NCBI GenBank assembly: GCA_012729395.1
Contig: JAAYDF010000361.1
Span: forward strand, 1 to 64,000
Length of the DNA: 64,000 bases
Direction: 5' to 3'
Source: Phycisphaerae bacterium
GTDB taxonomy: Bacteria > Planctomycetota > Phycisphaerae > UBA1845 > PWPN01
Made by a program: the position numbers and the translations under genes. This document shows, piece after piece, positions 39,558-52,606 of the stretch. The notes below the pieces were generated by a model. That model saw only the letters and a program-made list of their open reading frames with translations, was not told the DNA's origin and did no database searches. The first letter of the stretch is position 1. The number at the start of each line of letters is the position of its first letter.

Positions 39558-39735
39558 CAACCAACAGGTTGTTTCCTGAAGGTTGGGAAGAGACGTCAAT
39601 CCACCGGCCTCTCTTCCTTCCCCGATTGGCGGCAGAACCGCCACAAGTCCTTTGTTGACAAGGGGGTGTAGCTGATCTACATTGTGCAGCATAAAGGACG
39701 TTATTACGCATTATCCGTGCCCCGTAGGGAGGCCC

Positions 39736-40725
39736 ATGGCGACCGGTTTTCCTGTCATCCTCGAACGGTGTTTGGCCGTGTCCCGCACGACAAACAACGA
39801 TGCGCCGGCACTGGTACGCCAGTGCGGACCCGCCGCCGAGACCGCCTGGCACGACTTTTTCTCCGGCCAACTGCCCAACGACCATACCCGGGCCGCCTAT
39901 ACGCACGCTCTGAGGCGTTTTCTGGCCTGGTGTGAGGGTATGGGTAAGCCACTTCCCGCCGTCATGGCGGGCGACGTGGGCGATTACTTCCGCGAGCACC
40001 CGGGCAGCACATCAACCAAGAAGCAACACCTGGCCGCCCTGCGACGGTTCTTCAACCTCCTGGTGGAGCGGCATGTCTGCCTGATCAACCCCGCCGCCGT
40101 CGCCCAACTTGAGCGGCTCACCATCGTGGAAGGCAAGACCCCCCAGATCACCCCGTCACAGATCCACAAGTTGCTGGAATCGTTGCCCCCCGGGAAGCTC
40201 GCCGGCCTGCGAGACCGGGCAATCATCGGCATCCTCAGCTTCACCGGTGCCAGAGCCGGTGCGGTCGCCAAACTCCGCCACCAGGACCTGTACTACGTGG
40301 ATACCCAGTGGATGCTGCACTTCGACGAGAAAGGCGGCAAGTCCCGCGAGATCCCGGTCCGTCACGACCTGGAAAGGGTGCTCTTCGAGTACGTGGACGC
40401 GGCCGGGCTGCGCGACGCCGGCGGCAAGGTGCCATTACTCCGCACGGCCGTGCGGAAGGAAAACCGGCTGACAGACCGTGGCATGACCGCCAACGACGTG
40501 TGCCGCATGGTCAAACGCCGGCTGAAGCGGGCGGGACTGCCCGCAAACCTGTCGGCCCATTCGTTTCGCGTCGCCGTGGCCACGGACCTGTTTGACCAGG
40601 GCGTCGATACCAAGGATATTCAGCAATTACTCGGGCACTCGGACCCGAGAACCACCCGGCTTTACGACAGAACGGACAGGAAGGTCACCAGGAATCTCGT
40701 GGAGAGGATTCGTATAGCGATCTGA
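39736..40725 (+). CDS. Second tyrosine recombinase (XerC/D-like), internal to element
   Basis: SFTGARAGAVAKLRHQDL...LSAHSFRVAVATDLFDQGVDTKDIQQLLGHSDPRTTRLYDRTD; R-HxxR-H-Y order. Confidence 0.85.
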   Translation: MATGFPVILERCLAVSRTTNNDAPALVRQCGPAAETAWHDFFSGQLPNDHTRAAYTHALRRFLAWCEGMGKPLPAVMAGDVGDYFREHPGSTSTKKQHLAALRRFFNLLVERHVCLINPAAVAQLERLTIVEGKTPQITPSQIHKLLESLPPGKLAGLRDRAIIGILSFTGARAGAVAKLRHQDLYYVDTQWMLHFDEKGGKSREIPVRHDLERVLFEYVDAAGLRDAGGKVPLLRTAVRKENRLTDRGMTANDVCRMVKRRLKRAGLPANLSAHSFRVAVATDLFDQGVDTKDIQQLLGHSDPRTTRLYDRTDRKVTRNLVERIRIAI

Positions 40726-41603: not shown

Positions 41604-41900
41604 ATGTCAGTTGCAGTAAGCGTTGTTCAGGAGATCGACGAGTACATTCGGACCCACGGCGGCGGGTACCGGGCATGGTACGTAGGAATTGCCGCCAATC
41701 CCCGTGACCGACTCTTCAACGGTCACTGCGTACGAGAGCACGGCGATCTCTGGATCTACCGAGACGCCGGCTCCGACGCTGCTGCCCGCCAGGCCGAGAG
41801 CTACTTCCTTTCTCTCGGCTGCAGGGGCGGTGATGGTGGCGGGTCATTCCAGACCCGCTTCGTGTACGCATACAAGATGGCCCTGCAAACGCGGCCTTAA
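41604..41900 (+). CDS. Small GIY-YIG-like protein
   Basis: GGGYRAWYVGIAANPRDRLFNGHCVREH...ARQAESYFLSLGCRGGDGGG. Confidence 0.55.
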   Translation: MSVAVSVVQEIDEYIRTHGGGYRAWYVGIAANPRDRLFNGHCVREHGDLWIYRDAGSDAAARQAESYFLSLGCRGGDGGGSFQTRFVYAYKMALQTRP

Positions 41901-41952
41901 TGGGAGGTGCCGGTCGGCGGACGGGCTCGTCCCGTCCGCCGACATCCCGGCC

Positions 41953-42558
41953 ATGTCCAACAACACCGTTCATCTTGAGCAGATCGCCGACGTGTTCCCC
42001 GGCCACTACGAGCAGGGCTCCGGCAAGGACGAACACGCGGGCACGCACCGGCTGGTGTTCATCGGGTCAATCGATCCAGGACCAGGCCACCGGCTCGTCC
42101 CGGAGAAATGCCCGCGTTTCACGCCCAAGCTCGAACCGGGTGATGCCATCCTGCAGTCGGGCGACCTGATCATGCCGGCACGCGGGGATCGGCAGGACGT
42201 TGCGTACCTTGACGCCCCGCCAGATGCACGGCCGCTGGTTGCGGCTTCCTTTCTCCACGTGATACGGCCGCATCGCGACGCTCTGGACCCCGGCTATCTG
42301 GCATGGTGGCTGAATCAACCCAGCGTGCAGGCACGGGTGGCCGCATTCGTTCGCGGCTCGAACATGCCGTTCCTGCCGCTGGAGGAAACGCGAGGAATCA
42401 AGGTAACACTGCCCTCGCTCGGCGTGCAGCGCCGTATCGCCGAACTGTATCGCTTGTCCATCCAGGAGTTTGACCTTACAACGGCCATCCGCGAGCACCG
42501 ACAGCGACTGATTCACGCGCTCGCCTTTCAAGCCGTTCAGGGAGCTATCCGTACATGA
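41953..42558 (+). CDS. Single-TRD (half) HsdS-like specificity protein
   Basis: HRLVFIGSIDPG...LAWWLNQPSVQARVAAFVRGSNMPFLPLEETRGIKVTLPSLGVQRRIAELYRLSIQE; ATGA overlap with hsdM. Confidence 0.65.
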   Translation: MSNNTVHLEQIADVFPGHYEQGSGKDEHAGTHRLVFIGSIDPGPGHRLVPEKCPRFTPKLEPGDAILQSGDLIMPARGDRQDVAYLDAPPDARPLVAASFLHVIRPHRDALDPGYLAWWLNQPSVQARVAAFVRGSNMPFLPLEETRGIKVTLPSLGVQRRIAELYRLSIQEFDLTTAIREHRQRLIHALAFQAVQGAIRT

Positions 42559-44063
42559 GTCAACAGAAGCAGACGACCAAGGAAGTCTTCGCGGCCGTGT
42601 GGGCGGCCTGCGACACGTTTCGTGGCGCGGTGGACCCCGCCAACTACAAGAACTACGTCCTGACCATGCTCTTCCTCAAATACCTGTCTGACATGTCGCA
42701 CGAGCGGCGGGAAGAACTGGAGCAGAAGTACAAGGGCGACAAGACCCGAGTTCAACGTGCCCTGCGTAACGAGCGGTTCCTTCTGCCCGCGGAGTCGGAT
42801 TTCAAGTACCTCTACCAGCACCGCGACGCCGACAATGTTGGCGAGTTGATCAACATCGCCCTGGCCAACCTGGAAGATGAGAACAAGGCCAAGCTGGAGA
42901 ACGTGTTCGGCAACGTGGATTTCAACAGCGAGGCCGAACTGGGCAGCACGCGAGAGCGAAACACTCGGCTCAAGGCGGTGCTGGAAGACTTCAACCGGAT
43001 CGATCTGCGGCCGTCGCATCTGGCCGGTCGGGATACCATCGGCGACTCCTACGAGTACCTGATCGCCCGTTTCGCGGCCGGCGCCGGCAAGAAGGCCGGC
43101 GAGTTCTACACGCCGCCGGAGGTTTCCGACCTGCTTGCCCGGCTGGTTAGGCCCAGGAAAGGTGCCCGCATCCTCGACCCGGCCTGTGGCTCGGGGTCAC
43201 TGCTGATCAAGGTCGGCCGACAGGTCGGCTCGGATGATTTCGCCCTGTACGGCCAGGAGTCCAATGGCTCGACCTGGGCGCTGTGCAAGATGAACATGTT
43301 TCTGCACCGCATGGACCAGGCCCGCATCGAACGTTGCGACACGCTGCGAAGGCCTAAACTGGTGGAAAACGACGAGCTGATGCGGTTCGACATTGTCGTG
43401 GCCAACCCGCCGTTCAGCTTGGATAAGTGGGGACAGGAGGATGCCAAGAACGACCGGTTCAACCGCTTCTTCCGCGGGCTGCCGCCCAAGAGCCGCGGCG
43501 ACTACGCGTTCATCAGCCACATGATTGAAACCGCCCTGGACGGCTGCGGCCGTGTCGGTGTGATTGTCCCGCACGGCGTGTTGTTCCGCGGCGGAGCTGA
43601 AGGCCGCATACGCCGGCAGCTTGTCGAGGACAACTTGCTCGACCTGGTGCTTGGGCTGCCGCCGAATCTGTTCTACGGTACGGGAATTCCCGCCGCCATC
43701 CTGATCTTCGACAAGTCACGGAAAGGCGACAAGAAGCGCAAGAACGTCCTGTTCATTGACGCCAGCCGGGAGTTCGCCCAGGGACCTAATCAGAACCGGC
43801 TGCGTGACGAAGATATGGAGAAGATCTGTGCTACGTATGACGCGTACAAGGACGTTGAGAAATACGCCCACGCGGCTACGGCACAGGAGATGACGGAGAA
43901 TGACTTTAACCTCAACATCCCACGCTATGTCGACACGTTCGAAGAAGAGGAGACAGTCGACATCAGGGCAACACAGAAAGAAATAGAGCGGCTGGAAGGG
44001 GAGCTCGCGAAGGTTCGTGCTCAGATGATGACACATCTAAAGGAGTTGGGAATCCATGCCTGA
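42555..44063 (+). CDS. hsdM: Type I restriction-modification DNA methyltransferase subunit
   Basis: GEFYTPPEVSDLLARLVRPRKGARILDPACGSGSLLIKVGRQ; VVANPPFSLDKW. Confidence 0.95.
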   Translation: MSQQKQTTKEVFAAVWAACDTFRGAVDPANYKNYVLTMLFLKYLSDMSHERREELEQKYKGDKTRVQRALRNERFLLPAESDFKYLYQHRDADNVGELINIALANLEDENKAKLENVFGNVDFNSEAELGSTRERNTRLKAVLEDFNRIDLRPSHLAGRDTIGDSYEYLIARFAAGAGKKAGEFYTPPEVSDLLARLVRPRKGARILDPACGSGSLLIKVGRQVGSDDFALYGQESNGSTWALCKMNMFLHRMDQARIERCDTLRRPKLVENDELMRFDIVVANPPFSLDKWGQEDAKNDRFNRFFRGLPPKSRGDYAFISHMIETALDGCGRVGVIVPHGVLFRGGAEGRIRRQLVEDNLLDLVLGLPPNLFYGTGIPAAILIFDKSRKGDKKRKNVLFIDASREFAQGPNQNRLRDEDMEKICATYDAYKDVEKYAHAATAQEMTENDFNLNIPRYVDTFEEEETVDIRATQKEIERLEGELAKVRAQMMTHLKELGIHA

Positions 44064-45351
44064 AACCGTCTCCAGATTCTTGGGCAGGCTTCCTACGGGC
44101 TGGCGGGTCGTGCCTCTCGGCGACGTTGTCGCCAAGAGCCGGCCGATTGTTTATGGCATCGTACAAGCAGGACCGCATGTTCCCGATGGCGTACCGTACA
44201 TCCGTAGTACTGATGTCAACGGTGTTCTTCGGGCAGACAAGCTTCCGAGGACAGAGCAAGCTATTGCAGGTCGCTACAAGCGTTCCAGCCTGAAGCCAGG
44301 CGACATCGTCTTCTCTTTGCGCGGAAACACGGGCACCACTTGCGTCGTTCCCAAATCCCTCTCGGGCGCCAACCTTACTCAAGGCACTGCACGAATCTCT
44401 GTTTCACCTGAGTTCTGCACAAGCTACGTTCGGATAGCGCTTAACTCGGAGCGCGTACGTCGAAGAATCGATGCAGTCTGTAAGGGGAGTACTTTCCGCG
44501 AGATTACCATCGAGGACTTGCGCAAACTAGCACTTCCGATGCCTCCGCGTGAGAAGCAGGAAAGCATAGCTGCAATTGTGGATGGATGGGATAAGGCAGA
44601 GCATGGACTCAATGGCCAGATCAAGAGAAAACACCGCCTACTTCGTGGGTTGATTCAGCAGCTTCTCACGAGTCGCCGAAGGTTTTCTGGTATCTGCCGG
44701 GAAGCATGGAAAGAGGTGTTGATTGGAGACATTCTCCGAGAGGCCGACCGCCCGGTTGAGTGGAATGACGAGGCGATCTACGACCTAGTCAGCGTGCGAA
44801 GGTGGGCGGGTGGCGTCTACACTCGCAATCGGCTTGCTGGCCGAGAGATCAAAGTCAAGAAGCTGAAGCGGATTAAGGCCGGCGACATCCTCATATCGCA
44901 CATTCAGTCTGCCTACGGCGCGATGGCCATGGTCAGCGACGATCATGACGGTCACTGCGTCTCCGAACTGTACACCGTGCTCATCCCCCGCGACGCCAGC
45001 ACATTCGACCGACGGTTCTTCGCATGGCTATGCCGCCGTAAGTGGATGTGGCACCAGGCGTATGTTGCCAGCAATGGCTTCCTGGCGGAGCGGCTACGTA
45101 TCAGTTTTGACCCTGCGTCGTTCCTGAAACGAGCCATACATATTCCCCCCACGATCGAGGAACAACGGGCGATCGCCGACGTGCTCGACACGGCCCAGAA
45201 GGAAATCGACCTGCTCAGGCAGCTTCGCGATCAGATCCAGAAACAGAAACGCGGCCTGATGCAGAAACTGTTGACCGGCCAGATCCCTGTACCGGCAGTG
45301 AAGGAGACAAAGGATGGCTCAGAGAGTCGGGCTCAGCGCGTATCGCGTTGA
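44056..45351 (+). CDS. hsdS: Type I restriction-modification specificity subunit (two TRDs)
   Basis: Two TRD units each ending with 'LPMPPREKQESIAAIVDGWDKAE' / 'IHIPPTIEEQRAIADVLDTAQKEIDLLRQLRDQIQKQKRGLMQKLLTGQIPV'. Confidence 0.9.
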   Translation: MPETVSRFLGRLPTGWRVVPLGDVVAKSRPIVYGIVQAGPHVPDGVPYIRSTDVNGVLRADKLPRTEQAIAGRYKRSSLKPGDIVFSLRGNTGTTCVVPKSLSGANLTQGTARISVSPEFCTSYVRIALNSERVRRRIDAVCKGSTFREITIEDLRKLALPMPPREKQESIAAIVDGWDKAEHGLNGQIKRKHRLLRGLIQQLLTSRRRFSGICREAWKEVLIGDILREADRPVEWNDEAIYDLVSVRRWAGGVYTRNRLAGREIKVKKLKRIKAGDILISHIQSAYGAMAMVSDDHDGHCVSELYTVLIPRDASTFDRRFFAWLCRRKWMWHQAYVASNGFLAERLRISFDPASFLKRAIHIPPTIEEQRAIADVLDTAQKEIDLLRQLRDQIQKQKRGLMQKLLTGQIPVPAVKETKDGSESRAQRVSR

Positions 45352-46285
45352 AATCAAGAACAAACATTCGCAACAGGTGTGGCGTTTCCAGAAGGGAACC
45401 CCGGAGGACGGGTATGCGGAGATCGAGAGGTACCTCGACACGCGGTTGAATCACTTGGTGCGGCTGGGAGATCCTCTGCCCGATACTGGCGAGTACGTCG
45501 ATAACCGGGCCGTCAAGCTGATTAAGCTGGACAAGGCCGCAACCCGCCGCTTGCTGGCCGGGCTCTATGAAAAAGGCGAAGCCGGCCACATCCAGGATAT
45601 CCACAACTTCGATGTTGACGGCGATCCGGTGTACACGACGCAACGGAATGAGGGCGCTCTTGCGCCCCTGTACTTCCGTTTTCACCTGCAGGATGGAAAA
45701 CCATTCGGTGTTGCACTCCTCCAGACTGTTGGTCGAGATGGCTTGAAAGGCTACCTTGAAGACGATCTCCGACGGTTCTTCAGCAATCGTGAGCCGGAAT
45801 TGACGGTGAAACTCACGCAACTCATGGACGCTAAGGTCCTCGAAGCGTTTGCCCAGCAAGGCAAGCTACAGGATGTCATTCTCATCAACAGCGGTAAGAC
45901 CGCCGATAGCCGCCGCTCCATGGAACGGACCACCGTAGGTGATGACGCCCTCGGTGAGGATGGTGATAAGCTGGCGATGCGGCTGCACAGGCGAGGCGGC
46001 TGGAAGAAGAAGACACTGCAGCTCTTGATGCGCGCAATCCACCGTGGTGAGGACCCACGCACGATCGTCAACACGCCTGGGCTTGAGAAGATTGACGAGA
46101 TGCTTGTCGAAATTGAGCAAGGGGGACGCAAGCAGACCTTCAGCTTGTTGAACCCCGACGACAGCCCGATTCGATACGATATTACGAACAAGGTGTCGCG
46201 GGATGGGAATGGATTCCCAAGCTGGCAATCCGTCCACCGCGCTGCAGACGAGGTGTGGCAGAGCGTCAGCCAACTCATTCTGTGA
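45314..46285 (+). CDS. Uncharacterised soluble protein inside the R-M operon
   Basis: 323 aa, overlaps hsdS by 38 bp; no motif recognised with confidence. Confidence 0.75.
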   Translation: MAQRVGLSAYRVEIKNKHSQQVWRFQKGTPEDGYAEIERYLDTRLNHLVRLGDPLPDTGEYVDNRAVKLIKLDKAATRRLLAGLYEKGEAGHIQDIHNFDVDGDPVYTTQRNEGALAPLYFRFHLQDGKPFGVALLQTVGRDGLKGYLEDDLRRFFSNREPELTVKLTQLMDAKVLEAFAQQGKLQDVILINSGKTADSRRSMERTTVGDDALGEDGDKLAMRLHRRGGWKKKTLQLLMRAIHRGEDPRTIVNTPGLEKIDEMLVEIEQGGRKQTFSLLNPDDSPIRYDITNKVSRDGNGFPSWQSVHRAADEVWQSVSQLIL

Positions 46286-46298
46286 GGAGGCAGTGGCG

Positions 46299-46952
46299 AT
46301 GAAAAGGCCAACCGGACTACGCGGAATAGCTTGGTGTCACTTCTCAGTGCTGCTCGTTAACGGGGAACGGCAGTGGCGCAAGTGGCGTTTCTGGCTGCTC
46401 GGAATCGGCCCTTTCGTATTGGGCGCGCTGCTCACGTGGAAGCTGGGGCCTCCGGGTGGAGACTATCTCCCCTTGATCGTGGCCGTCTATTCAGTGGTCG
46501 CAGCCGTCCTCGTTGGCCTAATCCCGCTCGCCCAGAGCGTCATCGGGCAAAGTGATCCTGAGCGGAAGTACGAGGCTGGTGAAAAACCACTCGCCCAGCA
46601 GGAACTCGACCGGATTCAAACGCTCCAGGACCTCCACGCAGCGATCTCGTACGCAACCATACTGCTTGTGGTGTCCCTGGGAGCGTGTGTCGCATTGGCC
46701 TTTCTTCTGCCCTCTGCTGCTAAGCAAGGGGCCGCACCCGCACCGCAACTGAAAGCACTTGTGGCACTCGCGTATGTTATGGCAGCCATCATCTACTCTG
46801 TGGGAGTCTCTACTGCCCTGACCTTCTTTGACGTTGCGACAGGCGTGTTTGAGGCCATGGAGAACCATGCGGAGACATTGAAGCGTCGGATTCGGAACAA
46901 CATCCAGCCAGACGTGGAATCCAAGAATGAGCACAGCACCCCTAATCAGTGA
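46299..46952 (+). CDS. Four-TM membrane protein inside the R-M operon
   Basis: TM: FWLLGIGPFVLGALL; LPLIVAVYSVVAAVLVGLIPLA; ATILLVVSLGACVALAFLLP; LKALVALAYVMAAIIYSVGVSTALTFF; end overlaps hsdR start. Confidence 0.75.
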   Translation: MKRPTGLRGIAWCHFSVLLVNGERQWRKWRFWLLGIGPFVLGALLTWKLGPPGGDYLPLIVAVYSVVAAVLVGLIPLAQSVIGQSDPERKYEAGEKPLAQQELDRIQTLQDLHAAISYATILLVVSLGACVALAFLLPSAAKQGAAPAPQLKALVALAYVMAAIIYSVGVSTALTFFDVATGVFEAMENHAETLKRRIRNNIQPDVESKNEHSTPNQ

Positions 46953-49900
46953 AGATGCCGTATCGCAATTACCGGCATTGAAGCTGCTCATGTCCCTCGG
47001 CTGGGAGTACATCACGCCGGCCGAGGCACTCGCCCTGCGCGGCGGCCGGCGGTCGGAAGTGTTGCTGTACGGTGTGCTTGAAGAATGGCTCCGCGAGCAC
47101 AACCGGATCGACTATCGCGGTGAATCGGTGCCCTTCACCGAGGCAAATATCGCGTCCGCCATCGCCTCATTGCGCGACGAGCCGGACGACGGCCTTGTCC
47201 GCACAAACGAGAAGCTTTATGACCTGCTCGTGCTGGGTAAGGGCCTCAAGCAGACGGTCAAGGGGGATACGAAGAGCTTCCAGCTTCATTATGTGGACTG
47301 GGAGAACCCGGAGAACAACTGCTTCCAGGTCACCGAGGAATTCTCCGTTGAACGGTCGGGGACAACGGAGACCTTGCGGCCCGATCTCGTGTTGTTCGTG
47401 AATGGCATTGCGTTCGGGGTCATTGAGTGTAAACGAGCCGATCTCGGGGCTGGCAAGCCGGCACCGGTGATCCAGGCCATCGAACAACAGATTCGCAACC
47501 AGAAACCCGACGGGATTCCCAAGCTGTACCGCTACGTCCAGGTACTTGGGGCTGTTTCCCCGACCGGTGCCCCCGAGGGTGCCGCAGTCACTGAGGAATT
47601 CGTTTACGAGGCACAGCTTCCCGCGAGATACGCCACGGTGGGAACGCCGCGGAAGTTCTGGGCGAGTTGGCGGGAACGGCCGCTGCACAGCGGCAAGCTC
47701 GAAGTGACCGATGAGCAGATTACCGAGGCGGTCAACGCCCGCCTGCCAGCCGAGGAGAGAGAGAGACTGCTTGCAGGCCGGCCGCCGGAGGTGAGGGCGG
47801 ACTTCGAGGCAGCCGAGCGCGATGGCCGGCTGATCACAGAGCAGGATCGTCTCATTGCCGGGGTGTTCTCGCCCAAGCGCCTGCTCACGCTGTCCCACCG
47901 CTACATCGTTTTCGACGCCGGGGTCAGAAAGATCGCCAGGTACCAGCAGTACTTCTGCGTGGAGAAGATTCGCGAGCGTATTCGACGGCTTGGCGAAGAT
48001 GGCACCCGGAGCGGCGGCGTGGTGTGGCATACGCAGGGGTCGGGCAAGAGCCTGACTATGGTAATGCTCGTCAAGGCCATTGCCATGGATCGCCAGCGTG
48101 GCCGCATTCAGGGTGGTTCGGCCGGCGAACGTATCCTTCTGGTGACCGACCGCGTGGACCTCGACGACCAGATCTACGGTACATTCAAGCACTGCGGGCT
48201 GAAAACCGTCCAAGCAACGACTGGAGCGGAACTGGTGGACCTGCTCCGGGATTCCACGGCGAAGATCGTGACGACCGTCATCAACAAGTTCGAGGCTGCT
48301 ATTGGCAAGCAGAAGCTTCAGATCGACGACCCCAACATCTTCGTGTTGGTCGATGAAGGGCATCGGACGCAGTTTGGTATTCGACACTCGACCATGCGGC
48401 GGGTTCTGCCGAACGCCTGTTACATCGGGTTCACGGGTACACCTGTACGGAAGAAAGACAGCAGCACGGTCGAGAAGTTCGGCGGGATGATTGACGCCTA
48501 CACGATCAAGGAAGCAGAGGCGGATCGGGCGGTGCTGCCCCTGGTTTATGAGGGACGCCACGTCGTCAAGGATGTTGACCAGAAGGAGATTGACGACTGG
48601 TTCGATAAGTACACGGAACACCTGACCAAGGAGCAGAAGGCAGACCTGCAAAGGAAGATCAGCACGCAAGACCAGGTCATGCAGGCTGATCCTGTCATTC
48701 GGCGGATTGCCCGGGACGTGTCCGAGCACTACCGCGATTTCCTGCAACACACGGGGTTGAAAGCTCAACTCGTGGCGCCGACCAAATCGGCAGCCATCCA
48801 GTACAAGCACTGGCTTGATGACCTGGGAGAGGTGCGGTCTGAGGTCCTGATCTCGTCGGTGGATGACCGCGAAGGCGACGAGGACCTCTACAAGCCCAAC
48901 CGTGAGGTCGTTAATCGGTTCTGGAAAACTGTCCTGGAACGCTTCGGGACGGAGCAGGAATACAACAAGCAGCTTATCAACGCATTCAAGTACGGCGATA
49001 CTCGCGACCCCAACAGCGACGCGCCGGAGATCATGATCGTTGTGCACAAACTTCTGACCGGGTTCGATGCCCCGGACAACACGACGCTCTATCTCTGCCG
49101 TATGTTGCGTGAGCACACGCTGCTACAGGCCATCGCCCGCGTGAACCGCTTGGCAACCGGCAAGGAGCGGGGATACATCATCGACTACCGGAATGTGCTG
49201 GAAGAGCTCGATACCGCGTTCTCCATGTACGCCCGCGATCCTGATGACCCTGACGCTGCACTCCTCGGATTCGCAACGCCCGTCGCCCACGTGGAAGAGA
49301 CGTGGGCCGACCTGGCACAGCGACATTCGACACTTTGGGATACGTTCAAGGAGTTGGGCAATTCACGCGACCGCGAGGCCTTCGAGCAGCATCTTCGGCC
49401 AGAAGACCGGCGTGTCCGGTTCTATGAGCGGTTTGCGGCCTTTGCCCGAACGCTGGACGTGGCCCTGGCCTCTCACACGTTCCTTGAGCGAACGGCCCAC
49501 AAGACCGTGAAACGGTATCGTGATGATCTCAAGTTCTTTGGCGAGCTACGCCGGTCCGTCCGGATTCGCTACGCCGAGGTGGTTGATTTCTCCGAGTATG
49601 AACCGAAGATCCGTAAGCTACTCGACCAGTACATTTCAGCCACTGGCGTTGAAGCGTTGACCGGCAAGATCGATCTTTACGACCGAGAGCAACGCGCCGC
49701 GGCCCTCGAAGCGGCCGGCTCCGCATCTTCCAAGGCTGAGACCATCGCGAGCAACGTCGAGCGGGTTCTCGACGACCGAGTGAAGCGTGAAGACCCTGCA
49801 TCCTACCGCCGGTTCTCCGACATGTTGCGAGAGGTGATTGAGCGGATGCGAGCGGGTTGGCTCGCCGCGGCGGAAGCGCTGGTGCAGGTGGAGAAGATTG

Positions 49901-50220
49901 AGGAAGAGGTACTGCGTCCCAAGTCTGATGACGTGCCGGAAGCGATTCGTGCAAATCGGCTGGCAGCGGTGATCTACAGGAATACGCAAGAGACGCTCGG
50001 CGACAAAGGCCCTGAAGCAGCGGCTGCAATCGACGAGATTATCGAAAGCCGAGCAATTGTCGGCTGGAAGGATAATGACGACCGGCAGAAGCAGATGCGC
50101 CAGGCCGTTGACGATTACCTGTTTGATCTGAACGAGGAGCACCAACTCGGCCTGTCCGTCGAGCAGATCGACCGGCTGATTGACCTGTGCATGGAGCGTG
50201 CCAGGGCCGTTCTCCCATGA
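46927..50220 (+). CDS. hsdR: Type I restriction endonuclease subunit R
   Basis: RPDLVLFVNGIAFGVIECKR nuclease motif; VVWHTQGSGKSLTMVML Walker A; LVDEGHRTQFG; FTGTPV. Confidence 0.95.
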   Translation: MSTAPLISEDAVSQLPALKLLMSLGWEYITPAEALALRGGRRSEVLLYGVLEEWLREHNRIDYRGESVPFTEANIASAIASLRDEPDDGLVRTNEKLYDLLVLGKGLKQTVKGDTKSFQLHYVDWENPENNCFQVTEEFSVERSGTTETLRPDLVLFVNGIAFGVIECKRADLGAGKPAPVIQAIEQQIRNQKPDGIPKLYRYVQVLGAVSPTGAPEGAAVTEEFVYEAQLPARYATVGTPRKFWASWRERPLHSGKLEVTDEQITEAVNARLPAEERERLLAGRPPEVRADFEAAERDGRLITEQDRLIAGVFSPKRLLTLSHRYIVFDAGVRKIARYQQYFCVEKIRERIRRLGEDGTRSGGVVWHTQGSGKSLTMVMLVKAIAMDRQRGRIQGGSAGERILLVTDRVDLDDQIYGTFKHCGLKTVQATTGAELVDLLRDSTAKIVTTVINKFEAAIGKQKLQIDDPNIFVLVDEGHRTQFGIRHSTMRRVLPNACYIGFTGTPVRKKDSSTVEKFGGMIDAYTIKEAEADRAVLPLVYEGRHVVKDVDQKEIDDWFDKYTEHLTKEQKADLQRKISTQDQVMQADPVIRRIARDVSEHYRDFLQHTGLKAQLVAPTKSAAIQYKHWLDDLGEVRSEVLISSVDDREGDEDLYKPNREVVNRFWKTVLERFGTEQEYNKQLINAFKYGDTRDPNSDAPEIMIVVHKLLTGFDAPDNTTLYLCRMLREHTLLQAIARVNRLATGKERGYIIDYRNVLEELDTAFSMYARDPDDPDAALLGFATPVAHVEETWADLAQRHSTLWDTFKELGNSRDREAFEQHLRPEDRRVRFYERFAAFARTLDVALASHTFLERTAHKTVKRYRDDLKFFGELRRSVRIRYAEVVDFSEYEPKIRKLLDQYISATGVEALTGKIDLYDREQRAAALEAAGSASSKAETIASNVERVLDDRVKREDPASYRRFSDMLREVIERMRAGWLAAAEALVQVEKIEEEVLRPKSDDVPEAIRANRLAAVIYRNTQETLGDKGPEAAAAIDEIIESRAIVGWKDNDDRQKQMRQAVDDYLFDLNEEHQLGLSVEQIDRLIDLCMERARAVLP

Positions 50221-50963
50221 GTACACGGAAACCGAAAGCCCCGGGCGAAAGGCGAGTCGTCAAGCTCGAACAGGCGAGTATCGAGTTTCATGTCGTGCGT
50301 GGCGACCGCGCACGTGCCCGCTTGGTTGTCCGGCCAGGCGGACAAGTGGAAGTCCGTGTGCCCAAGGAGGCCTCCGATGATTGGATTGACGATGTGGTCA
50401 AGCGTCGTCGCCGCTGGATTCTTCGGCAGCAGGTGTACTTCGAGCAGTTTCGCCCGCGCGAGCCGGAACGACGGTACGTGAATGGTGAGACCGTTCGGTA
50501 CCTGGGGCGTCAGTATACTCTGCGCATCCGGAAGCACGGTCAGGGTAAGGCTCACTTGAAAGGACGCTATTTGGAGGTTTGCGTTCGACCTTCTGATGAC
50601 CTTGAGGTGGTTCGGGATGCTGTCCAAGCATGGTACCGCAGCAGGGCAGAGGAGGTGATTGCCCGAAGAGCGGAGCCCTGCTTGGCTTTAATGCATGCCC
50701 ACGGAATCGAGGCCCCCACGATTCGGCTTCTGCGTATGACCCGACGATGGGGTAGCTGCACGGGAAAGGGGCACGTCCTGTTGAACCCTTACCTGGTGAT
50801 TGCACCAACTGACTGTGTGGACTACGTTCTCGTGCACGAGTTGTGCCATGTGCGGCACCCTCGCCATGATGAGGCGTTTTATCGGCTGCTGACGACAGTG
50901 ATGCCGGACTGGCCGCGCCGTCGGCGGCGCTTGGAAAAGTATGGACCGTTTCTGACACTTTAG
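50217..50963 (+). CDS. YgjP-like (DUF45/M48-type) metallopeptidase, last gene of the R-M operon
   Basis: MTRRWGSCTGKGHVLLNPYLVIAPTDCVDYVLVHELCHVRHPRHDEAFYRLL; ATGA overlap with hsdR stop. Confidence 0.85.
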   Translation: MSTRKPKAPGERRVVKLEQASIEFHVVRGDRARARLVVRPGGQVEVRVPKEASDDWIDDVVKRRRRWILRQQVYFEQFRPREPERRYVNGETVRYLGRQYTLRIRKHGQGKAHLKGRYLEVCVRPSDDLEVVRDAVQAWYRSRAEEVIARRAEPCLALMHAHGIEAPTIRLLRMTRRWGSCTGKGHVLLNPYLVIAPTDCVDYVLVHELCHVRHPRHDEAFYRLLTTVMPDWPRRRRRLEKYGPFLTL

Positions 50964-51124
50964 CGAGGACGGTGGGATAACTTTCTTGACCCCAGGTCCG
51001 GGCTGTTTTCTGAAGACGTGTTCTTCAGGAACGGCGGGCAGATGGGACGTCTGAGCCGGTTCACCCCCCGTAGCTGGTCGATACTGGAGTCGTATATGGT
51101 GTTCATTATCCGGTGGATGGTTCG

Positions 51125-52606
51125 ATGAAGGCAAAGGGCAAATACCCGTTTGGCCGTAAGGAAGGGCTGGCGCTTGAGTTCAAGCGGGCCACCGACCGCT
51201 TGCCGTCTAATTTCTTCGAGACGGTCTGCGCCTTCTTGAATCTCGACGGCGGGCTGATCGTGCTTGGCATAGAGGATGACGGCACGGTTTCGGGTGTGGC
51301 CCCGGCCGCCGTTGAGCGCATCAAGGCCGACATCGCCAATCTGTCCAACAACCCGCAGAAACTCGATCCGCCGCACCTGTTGTTTCCCCACGAGGAACGG
51401 GTTGGGGACAAGACCGTCATCAAGGTTCTGGTCCCGGCCAGTTCGCAAGTTCATGAGGTGGGTGGCGCCGTTTTTCTGCGCAGCGAGGATGGCGACTACC
51501 GCATCCGAGGGGTCAATCGGCTCGCGGGCCTGATGAATCGCAAGCTCAGTTTCTACACCGAGCAGCGGGTCTATCCCTACCTGGGCATGGCCGATCTCGA
51601 TCCGGCCTTGTTTGAAAAGGCCCGGCTTCTCATGCTGGGCCGCCAGCCCCAGCACCCCTGGGCCAACCTGTCGCCCGAGGAGTTGCTCAGGGTTTCGGGA
51701 TTCATCCGCCAGGACTACTCGACCGGCAAGCCCGGCTACACCCTGGCCGCCGCCCTGATGTTCGGGTTTGACACCACCATTCAAAGTCTGGTGCCGGGCT
51801 ACAAGTTCGACGCCCTGCTCCGGCGCCGCGACACCGAGCGATACGACGACCGGCTGACCGTCCGCGGAAACCTGATCGACGCCTTTGACCTGCTGATGGG
51901 CTTCGTGGAAAAGCACCTCAACGACCCGTTCTACATGGAGGGCACCACGAGCATCAGCCTGCGCTCGATCATCTTCCGCGAGCTGGTGGCCAACATCATC
52001 GCCCACCGCGAGTACACCAGCGCCGCCCCGGCCACGATGATGATTTACCAGGATCGGGTCGAGTTCAAAAACCCCAACGTGCCGCACTACCATGGCCGGA
52101 TCGAGCCGGGCAACTTCACCCCGTTCCCCAAGAATCCGACGATCTGCAAGTTCATGATCCAGCTCGGGCGGTACGAGGAACTGGGCTCCGGCGTCCGCCG
52201 CGTGAACCAGTACCTGCCGCACTACGCCCCCGGCGCCGGCCGGCCGGTGTTCGAGGACGGCGACATGTTCATGGTGACGGTGCCGCTGGCGGCGACCGCC
52301 GCAAAGACCGCCCCCGAAGTCACCCCACAAGTCGCGGGTGAAGTCACGGGTGAAGTCGCAGGTGAAGTCACGGGTGAAGTCGCTCGGTTTCTGCAAGTGC
52401 TTGCCGAGAGACCCATGACCCGAACAGAGGCGCAGGAAGCGCTCGAATTAAAAGGACAGGCCAATTTCAGAAACCGGTACTTAGAGCCGACATTGGAGGC
52501 CGGGCTTGTCGAAATGACCATTCCCGACAAGCCCCGCAGCCGACTGCAGAAGTACCGGCTGACCGACAAGGGCCGAGCGATCCTGCTGAAAGGGAAGGAA
52601 TCCTGA
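51125..52606 (+). CDS. AlbA_2/Schlafen-like ATP-binding transcriptional-regulator-type protein
   Basis: EGLALEFKRATDRLPSNFFETVCAFLNLDGGLIVLGIEDDGTVSGV; GHKL-like LRSIIFRELVANIIAHREY; EVTGEVAGEVTGEV linker; C-terminal wHTH. Confidence 0.8.
   Translation: MKAKGKYPFGRKEGLALEFKRATDRLPSNFFETVCAFLNLDGGLIVLGIEDDGTVSGVAPAAVERIKADIANLSNNPQKLDPPHLLFPHEERVGDKTVIKVLVPASSQVHEVGGAVFLRSEDGDYRIRGVNRLAGLMNRKLSFYTEQRVYPYLGMADLDPALFEKARLLMLGRQPQHPWANLSPEELLRVSGFIRQDYSTGKPGYTLAAALMFGFDTTIQSLVPGYKFDALLRRRDTERYDDRLTVRGNLIDAFDLLMGFVEKHLNDPFYMEGTTSISLRSIIFRELVANIIAHREYTSAAPATMMIYQDRVEFKNPNVPHYHGRIEPGNFTPFPKNPTICKFMIQLGRYEELGSGVRRVNQYLPHYAPGAGRPVFEDGDMFMVTVPLAATAAKTAPEVTPQVAGEVTGEVAGEVTGEVARFLQVLAERPMTRTEAQEALELKGQANFRNRYLEPTLEAGLVEMTIPDKPRSRLQKYRLTDKGRAILLKGKES
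52337..52384 (+). repeat. 24-bp x 2 coding tandem repeat (GEVTGEVA linker)
   Basis: ggtgaagtcacgggtgaagtcgc(a/t) twice. Confidence 0.8.

Follow-up and report, generated by a model that had tools for sequence, protein, structure and literature searches.

RexAB is among the first abortive-infection systems described, and its trigger has long been sought. The closest described counterparts of the locus presented here are genes 43/44 of CarolAnn and 30/31 of Sbash, which are reported to defend against phages (PMC6426606; PMC6426596), with both genes of each pair required for defence according to the 2026 paper on Pseudomonas putida (PMC12894663). Sbash gp30 and CarolAnn gp44 are described as binding DNA non-specifically, and DumpsterDude is counted among the Rex homologues in the same account (PMC11077077); for CarolAnn and Sbash, the role of effector is proposed to fall to the membrane protein (PMC6426606; PMC6426596). 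The P. putida paper, which by its own tally counts only five RexAB-like systems, also presents the phage defence system PP_5643/PP_5644 (RexABpp), in which the membrane protein PP_5644 is said to arrest growth and damage membranes upon overproduction of the RexA-like PP_5643 (PMC12894663). As related there, the RexA-like fold of PP_5643 was recognised through DALI against 8TWQ, much as Foldseek did for our protein X, the partner has four transmembrane (TM) segments, and BLAST gave hypothetical proteins only (PMC12894663). We liken RexABpp to our pair by this published description.

In EcoprrI, a Type I restriction-modification (R-M) locus, the gene order is hsdM-hsdS-prrC-hsdR. The anticodon nuclease PrrC is described as kept silent by the Type I enzyme to which it is linked, until an anti-restriction factor of a phage activates it; Campylobacter rlo genes are given as inserts in Type I loci (PMC2610378).

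Here we analyse two genes, X and Y, in the window, the whole stretch of 64,000 nucleotides studied. X-Y is very probably an abortive-infection module of the RexAB type, made up of two genes that travel as cargo in a Type I R-M operon, between hsdS and hsdR. In the CarolAnn gp44/gp43 and Sbash gp30/gp31 pairs, too, the gene for a soluble protein precedes that for a membrane protein, which has four TM segments there and probably in Y; those pairs lie in phages, X-Y in an R-M operon. Lambda rexA-rexB shares with X-Y the gene order, the RexA-like fold predicted for X and a membrane partner; no sequence similarity to lambda RexA or RexB was detected, X-Y does not sit beside a CI repressor, and Y is longer than lambda RexB (217 vs 144 aa). 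PrrC resembles X-Y as a reserve defence gene whose locus encodes a Type I R-M system (PMC2610378), but the proteins are unrelated, a tRNase in one case and a putative membrane effector in the other.

Organization of the operon

Table 1. Genes of the operon and neighbouring features, in coordinates of the window.
Feature	Coordinates	Strand	Evidence
Tyrosine recombinase (phage integrase family)	39682-40725		
Frame upstream of hsdM	41689-42558		weak Methylase_S match, E 0.047
hsdM (Type I R-M methyltransferase, 502 aa, opens the operon)	42555-44063	+	Pfam N6_Mtase 7e-103, HsdM_N; TIGR00497 above cut-off
hsdS (specificity subunit, 431 aa)	44056-45351	+	Pfam Methylase_S 3.9e-21; PADLOC Specificity_I
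X (RexA-type, 323 aa, soluble, proposed DNA-binding sensor)	45314-46285	+	model fold and family profile
Y (RexB-type, 217 aa, in the membrane, candidate pore-forming effector)	46299-46952	+	family profile; model with four long helices
hsdR (Type I restriction subunit, 1097 aa)	46927-50220	+	TIGR00348 above cut-off; HSDR_N, SWI2_SNF2
YgjP-like metallopeptidase gene	50187-50963		
Protein gene downstream of the operon	51113-52606		SLFN_AlbA_2 / HATPase_c_4 / Fic-like_C

The five genes follow one another in the order hsdM-hsdS-X-Y-hsdR (Table 1). The first-pass annotation described the genes from hsdS to hsdR as overlapping or nearly so, and the coordinates agree: the ATG of X, preceded by AAGGAG, lies 38 bp before the end of hsdS, 13 bp separate X from Y, and Y overlaps hsdR by 26 bp, while hsdM and hsdS overlap by 8 bp. 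The program's ORF list begins Y at 46203 (249 aa), which makes it longer than its homologues. The ATG at 46299, preceded by GAGGAG, is the better start, as it agrees with the N-termini of the homologues. In GC content, X (57.0) and Y (57.8) match hsdS (56.8) and fall below the window mean of 61.3, so that composition does not separate the pair from its own operon.

Structure and homology of X

X shows no hydropathy peak, in keeping with the soluble protein of 323 aa that had been annotated, and its charge is neutral rather than basic (48 K+R vs 48 D+E). An AlphaFold2 model, built with 5 sequences in the alignment, reached medium confidence (pLDDT 67.3, pTM 0.69). A Foldseek comparison with RexA had been suggested as a check, and the best PDB match of the model is indeed lambda RexA (8TWQ; 8twq_B E 3.9e-6, 8twq_A E 5.2e-6). 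The RexA chains are the sole matches below 0.001 among 350,542 PDB chains, the next standing at 8.5e-3, and the VIA Z score against RexA is 10.4 over 223 residues, compared with 7.9 for the next chain. The superposition has an rmsd of 12.7 Å, which may reflect a shifted domain orientation in the X model relative to RexA; open and closed forms are proposed in the RexA structure paper (PMC11077077). The predicted model has a two-domain fold like that of RexA and RdgC, and its lower-ranking matches include IML3, CHL4/CENP-N and RdgC, of which IML3, CHL4 and RdgC are among the structural relatives reported for RexA itself (PMC11077077).

At the level of direct sequence, the X family has no detectable similarity to lambda RexA (hhalign E 0.45); the PDB profile search with the X-family (A9) profile did not find RexA, and a shuffle test of the family profile against lambda RexA gave z 0.0. 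A resemblance of one X segment to the central region of RexA, proposed by eye and with caution, is accordingly not detectable in sequence, and that caution was justified. X does not match PF15969/PF15968 or the PADLOC RexA/RexB models, whereas lambda RexA and RexB do. It has no PADLOC or NCBIfam match at E 10 and only a sub-threshold Pfam match, with no cyclase or polymerase family in Pfam, PADLOC or NCBIfam; an RNase III-like match (Pfam E 0.057) was dismissed as chance. PADLOC contains models of Kiwa (KwaAB), which was set aside as a candidate, X having 0 PADLOC families at E <= 10.

Profile comparison links X to a set of five RexA-like proteins from actinophages and Rhodococcus: CarolAnn gp44 and, recovered with it as query, Sbash gp30, Sejanus gp46, DumpsterDude gp44 (E 0.1) and the Rhodococcus WAY2 protein. 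The X family aligns with this set over 290 columns (hhalign probability 97.5, E 7.1e-12), and with the set minus the bridging proteins at E 9.6e-5 (probability 58.5), while the best of one reversal and five shuffles as controls gave E 0.2. In shuffle tests with our own profile aligner, single proteins scored z -0.6 (CarolAnn gp44), 2.1 (Sbash gp30), 2.6 (Sejanus gp46, whose reversal scored higher), 3.3 (DumpsterDude gp44) and 9.4 (Rhodococcus WAY2). By these profiles, X is homologous to characterised RexA-like proteins.

The membrane protein Y

The first-pass annotation gave Y four TM segments and a charged C-terminal tail. The tail is present from about residue 183 and is shared only with the family member P0006. 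As for the TM segments, a crude Kyte-Doolittle cut of 1.6 yields 3 in Y and P0006, and 4 or 5 in the other eight of the ten proteins in the family; as modelled by AlphaFold2, Y has long helices at 28-49, 57-83, 96-145 and 148-202, and because of these four helices, four TM segments are likely.

The membrane partners of these five RexA-like proteins from actinophages and Rhodococcus served as the RexB-like set (n=5), which the Y family matches with an hhalign probability of 97.1 and E 7e-11, against a best E of 0.085 in the controls (one reversal, five shuffles). The longer frame of DumpsterDude gp43 alone is matched at E 1.9e-12. Shuffle tests gave z 0.8 for RexB, 1.7 for Sbash gp31, 3.7 for CarolAnn gp43 (equalled by its reversal), 4.5 for Sejanus gp45 and 13.3 for DumpsterDude gp43. 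As single sequences, X and Y are far diverged from CarolAnn and Sbash: X alone matches the RexA-like set with a probability of 43 (E 2.5e-4) and Y alone the RexB-like set with 15 (E 0.0017). Since the single-protein z scores are weak for CarolAnn and Sbash, what ties X and Y to the actinophage set is the multi-sequence profiles together with the WAY2 and DumpsterDude bridges, more than CarolAnn or Sbash by themselves.

The Y family profile has no detectable similarity to lambda RexB in direct hhalign comparison, and Y matches neither PF15969/PF15968 nor the PADLOC RexA/RexB models. A fold search of the Y model against viral models had a best E of 0.027, with none of the matches named RexB.

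Two observations concern the annotation of relatives. DumpsterDude gp43 seems to be annotated too short at 115 aa, and its longer frame (2812-3384 of L023) can be aligned to the Y family across 164 columns. In the Rhodococcus WAY2 plasmid, an unannotated frame with membrane segments (3450-4004 of L024) overlaps the RexA-like gene and is likely a missed RexB-like gene.

Distribution and linkage of the pair

A tblastn search with X clearly matched a genome from its own phylum (E 4.9e-51, 33%) and, weakly, the Pseudomonas Pf phage PfAC16 (E 0.1). The Pf phage protein as query led to Acinetobacter plasmids, and the family alignments to IMG/VR contigs, Yersinia, Acinetobacter and a gammaproteobacterial MAG. 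X with its nearest relative P0005 matches the other eight members at an hhalign E of 2.3e-16, and Y with P0006 matches the rest of its family at E 8.1e-7; X and P0005 thus form one family with the eight. Short matches in L003 and L004 (E 0.002 and 0.007) were dropped, as the profile gave no confirmation. No match came from a scan of genome contigs with X, from scans of viral contigs with P0003 and A3, or from Klebsiella plasmid DNA against E. coli genomes, and tblastn of Y against phages gave nothing below E 2.

Absence of X-Y co-occurrence elsewhere had been named as grounds for abandoning the RexAB-like reading. All 10 of the opened loci whose X is near-complete have Y directly after it (the window, L002, L005, L007, L008, L009, L015, L016, L017 and L018), at spacings from an overlap of a few bases up to 67 bp. 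Outside this count stand L006 (the same match as L005), L014, the second Acinetobacter ANC 7933 plasmid (H16) and an eleventh, Klebsiella locus (L010), where both frames are broken. Because homologous pairs occur elsewhere, the adjacency of X and Y is not due to chance. X is present in 2 of 392 genomes of the phylum (its own and G355), and the Y profile finds 1 of the 392, the X-bearing one; PF15969 had no match in the 392, where control sequences gave no signal either.

The gammaproteobacterial X members belong to phrog_15676 and the Y members to phrog_15250, both of unassigned function in PHROGs. In the PHROGs search the window's X and Y do not reach these families, and phrog_15676 has no match in the window's own genome. 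Within the filamentous phage PfAC16 (412-1883 of L005, OR863247.1), the pair lies upstream of the repressor, as a RexAB-type moron in an inovirus. An integrase-like frame, identified by eye, adjoins the pair in L015.

A cargo site upstream of hsdR

Relatives of HsdR (E <= 1e-100) occur in 10 of 246 genomes including its own, at 11 places. X and Y are absent by tblastn (E <= 1e-3) from about 1.5 kb upstream of hsdR at all ten other places, but six of these ten loci carry another accessory gene 5' of hsdR. AbiD (L035) and RhuM/PDC-S05 (L038) lie between hsdS and hsdR, while TIR+SLOG (L033), HAD/PDC-S34 (L034), Fic/SoFic (L037) and P22_AR_N (L030) precede hsdR at loci where no hsdS turned up within reach. 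At L032, L036 and L039 hsdS adjoins hsdR, in L039 in pieces; the scan of upstream frames for accessory genes covered the loci other than L031. Because six of ten related loci carry another gene there, the position 5' of hsdR is a site for cargo, most of it genes of defence type.

Proposed mechanism and alternatives

The model fold of X, the profile matches of both proteins and their strict linkage together support the RexAB-like reading of the first-pass annotation and relate X-Y to RexAB. By analogy with the described systems, X would be a sensor, a dimer that binds DNA non-specifically as an RdgC-like clamp and reacts to intermediates of phage DNA or to a protein of the phage. Y would be a four-helix membrane oligomer, silent until opened by X, and open Y would permeabilise the membrane, stopping growth and aborting the infection. 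The pair and the R-M enzyme would form two layers expressed together, with X-Y acting when restriction fails.

The roles may be divided differently. In mycobacteriophage Butters, gp30/gp31 are described with reversed roles (PMC12894663), so that X would be a cytosolic toxic effector and Y its membrane tether, and the loops of Y-family proteins are indeed highly variable among members; we consider this quite improbable, as the profile-matched relatives CarolAnn and Sbash have the membrane protein as the proposed effector (PMC6426606; PMC6426596). Sub-threshold matches of Y to DUF4231 (Pfam E 0.0048) and SLATT_1 (E 0.026) raise the idea of a SLATT or second-messenger effector, with X making or sensing nucleotides and being no RexA. 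Both matches fall below curated cut-offs, and with the absence of cyclase or polymerase matches for X, its RexA-like model and the RexB-like match of Y all against it, this reading is barely credible and was rejected. That X and Y are non-defence passengers, inserted between hsdS and hsdR by accident, would suit the sporadic occurrence of X, found in 1 of 61 relatives of the host (itself), but is very unlikely: the carriers are phages, plasmids and an R-M operon, the frames are intact, the ribosome-binding sites good and the linkage strict, all of which indicates a mobile module for defence.

The remaining alternatives tie X-Y more closely to the R-M enzyme. HsdMSR might keep the pair silent as a reserve weapon like PrrC, to be triggered by anti-restriction or cleaved DNA. 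The overlap of the X-Y genes with their neighbours inside the operon, the other accessory genes at the same site and the precedent of PrrC, described as silenced by its linked enzyme (PMC2610378), speak for this, but we hold it to be unlikely, since nine of the nine other opened X-Y pairs lie outside R-M operons (per annotations or ORF lists) and the module therefore needs no R-M system. It is likewise doubtful that what X reads before it opens Y is the outcome of Type I restriction, either its products or its failure, with DNA ends, stalled HsdR or the loss of HsdMSR under a phage anti-restriction protein as candidate inputs. If it were, X-Y would parallel the PrrC guard system at the membrane, and would provide a defined, testable input for the long-sought RexA trigger.

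For the favoured RexAB-type module, what is new is where it lies, 5' of hsdR among the genes of a Type I R-M operon, an embedding seen in one copy among the opened loci; the titles and abstract openings of the literature searched on RexAB and restriction-modification do not report RexAB inside an R-M operon. The range of RexAB-type pairs now takes in plasmids as well as a filamentous Pf phage and this Type I R-M operon, the nameless phage families phrog_15676 and phrog_15250 gain a likely function, and the natural pairing with a restriction enzyme offers a setting in which to probe the RexAB trigger.

Neighbouring features of the window

The tyrosine recombinase gene about 1.8 kb upstream of hsdM hints at mobility of the R-M block. 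The frame upstream of hsdM with the weak Methylase_S match is perhaps half a specificity subunit. At the other end, the YgjP-like metallopeptidase gene apparently belongs to the operon of hsdR, because it overlaps the end of hsdR by 34 bp, and the gene for the SLFN_AlbA_2 / HATPase_c_4 / Fic-like_C protein follows downstream.
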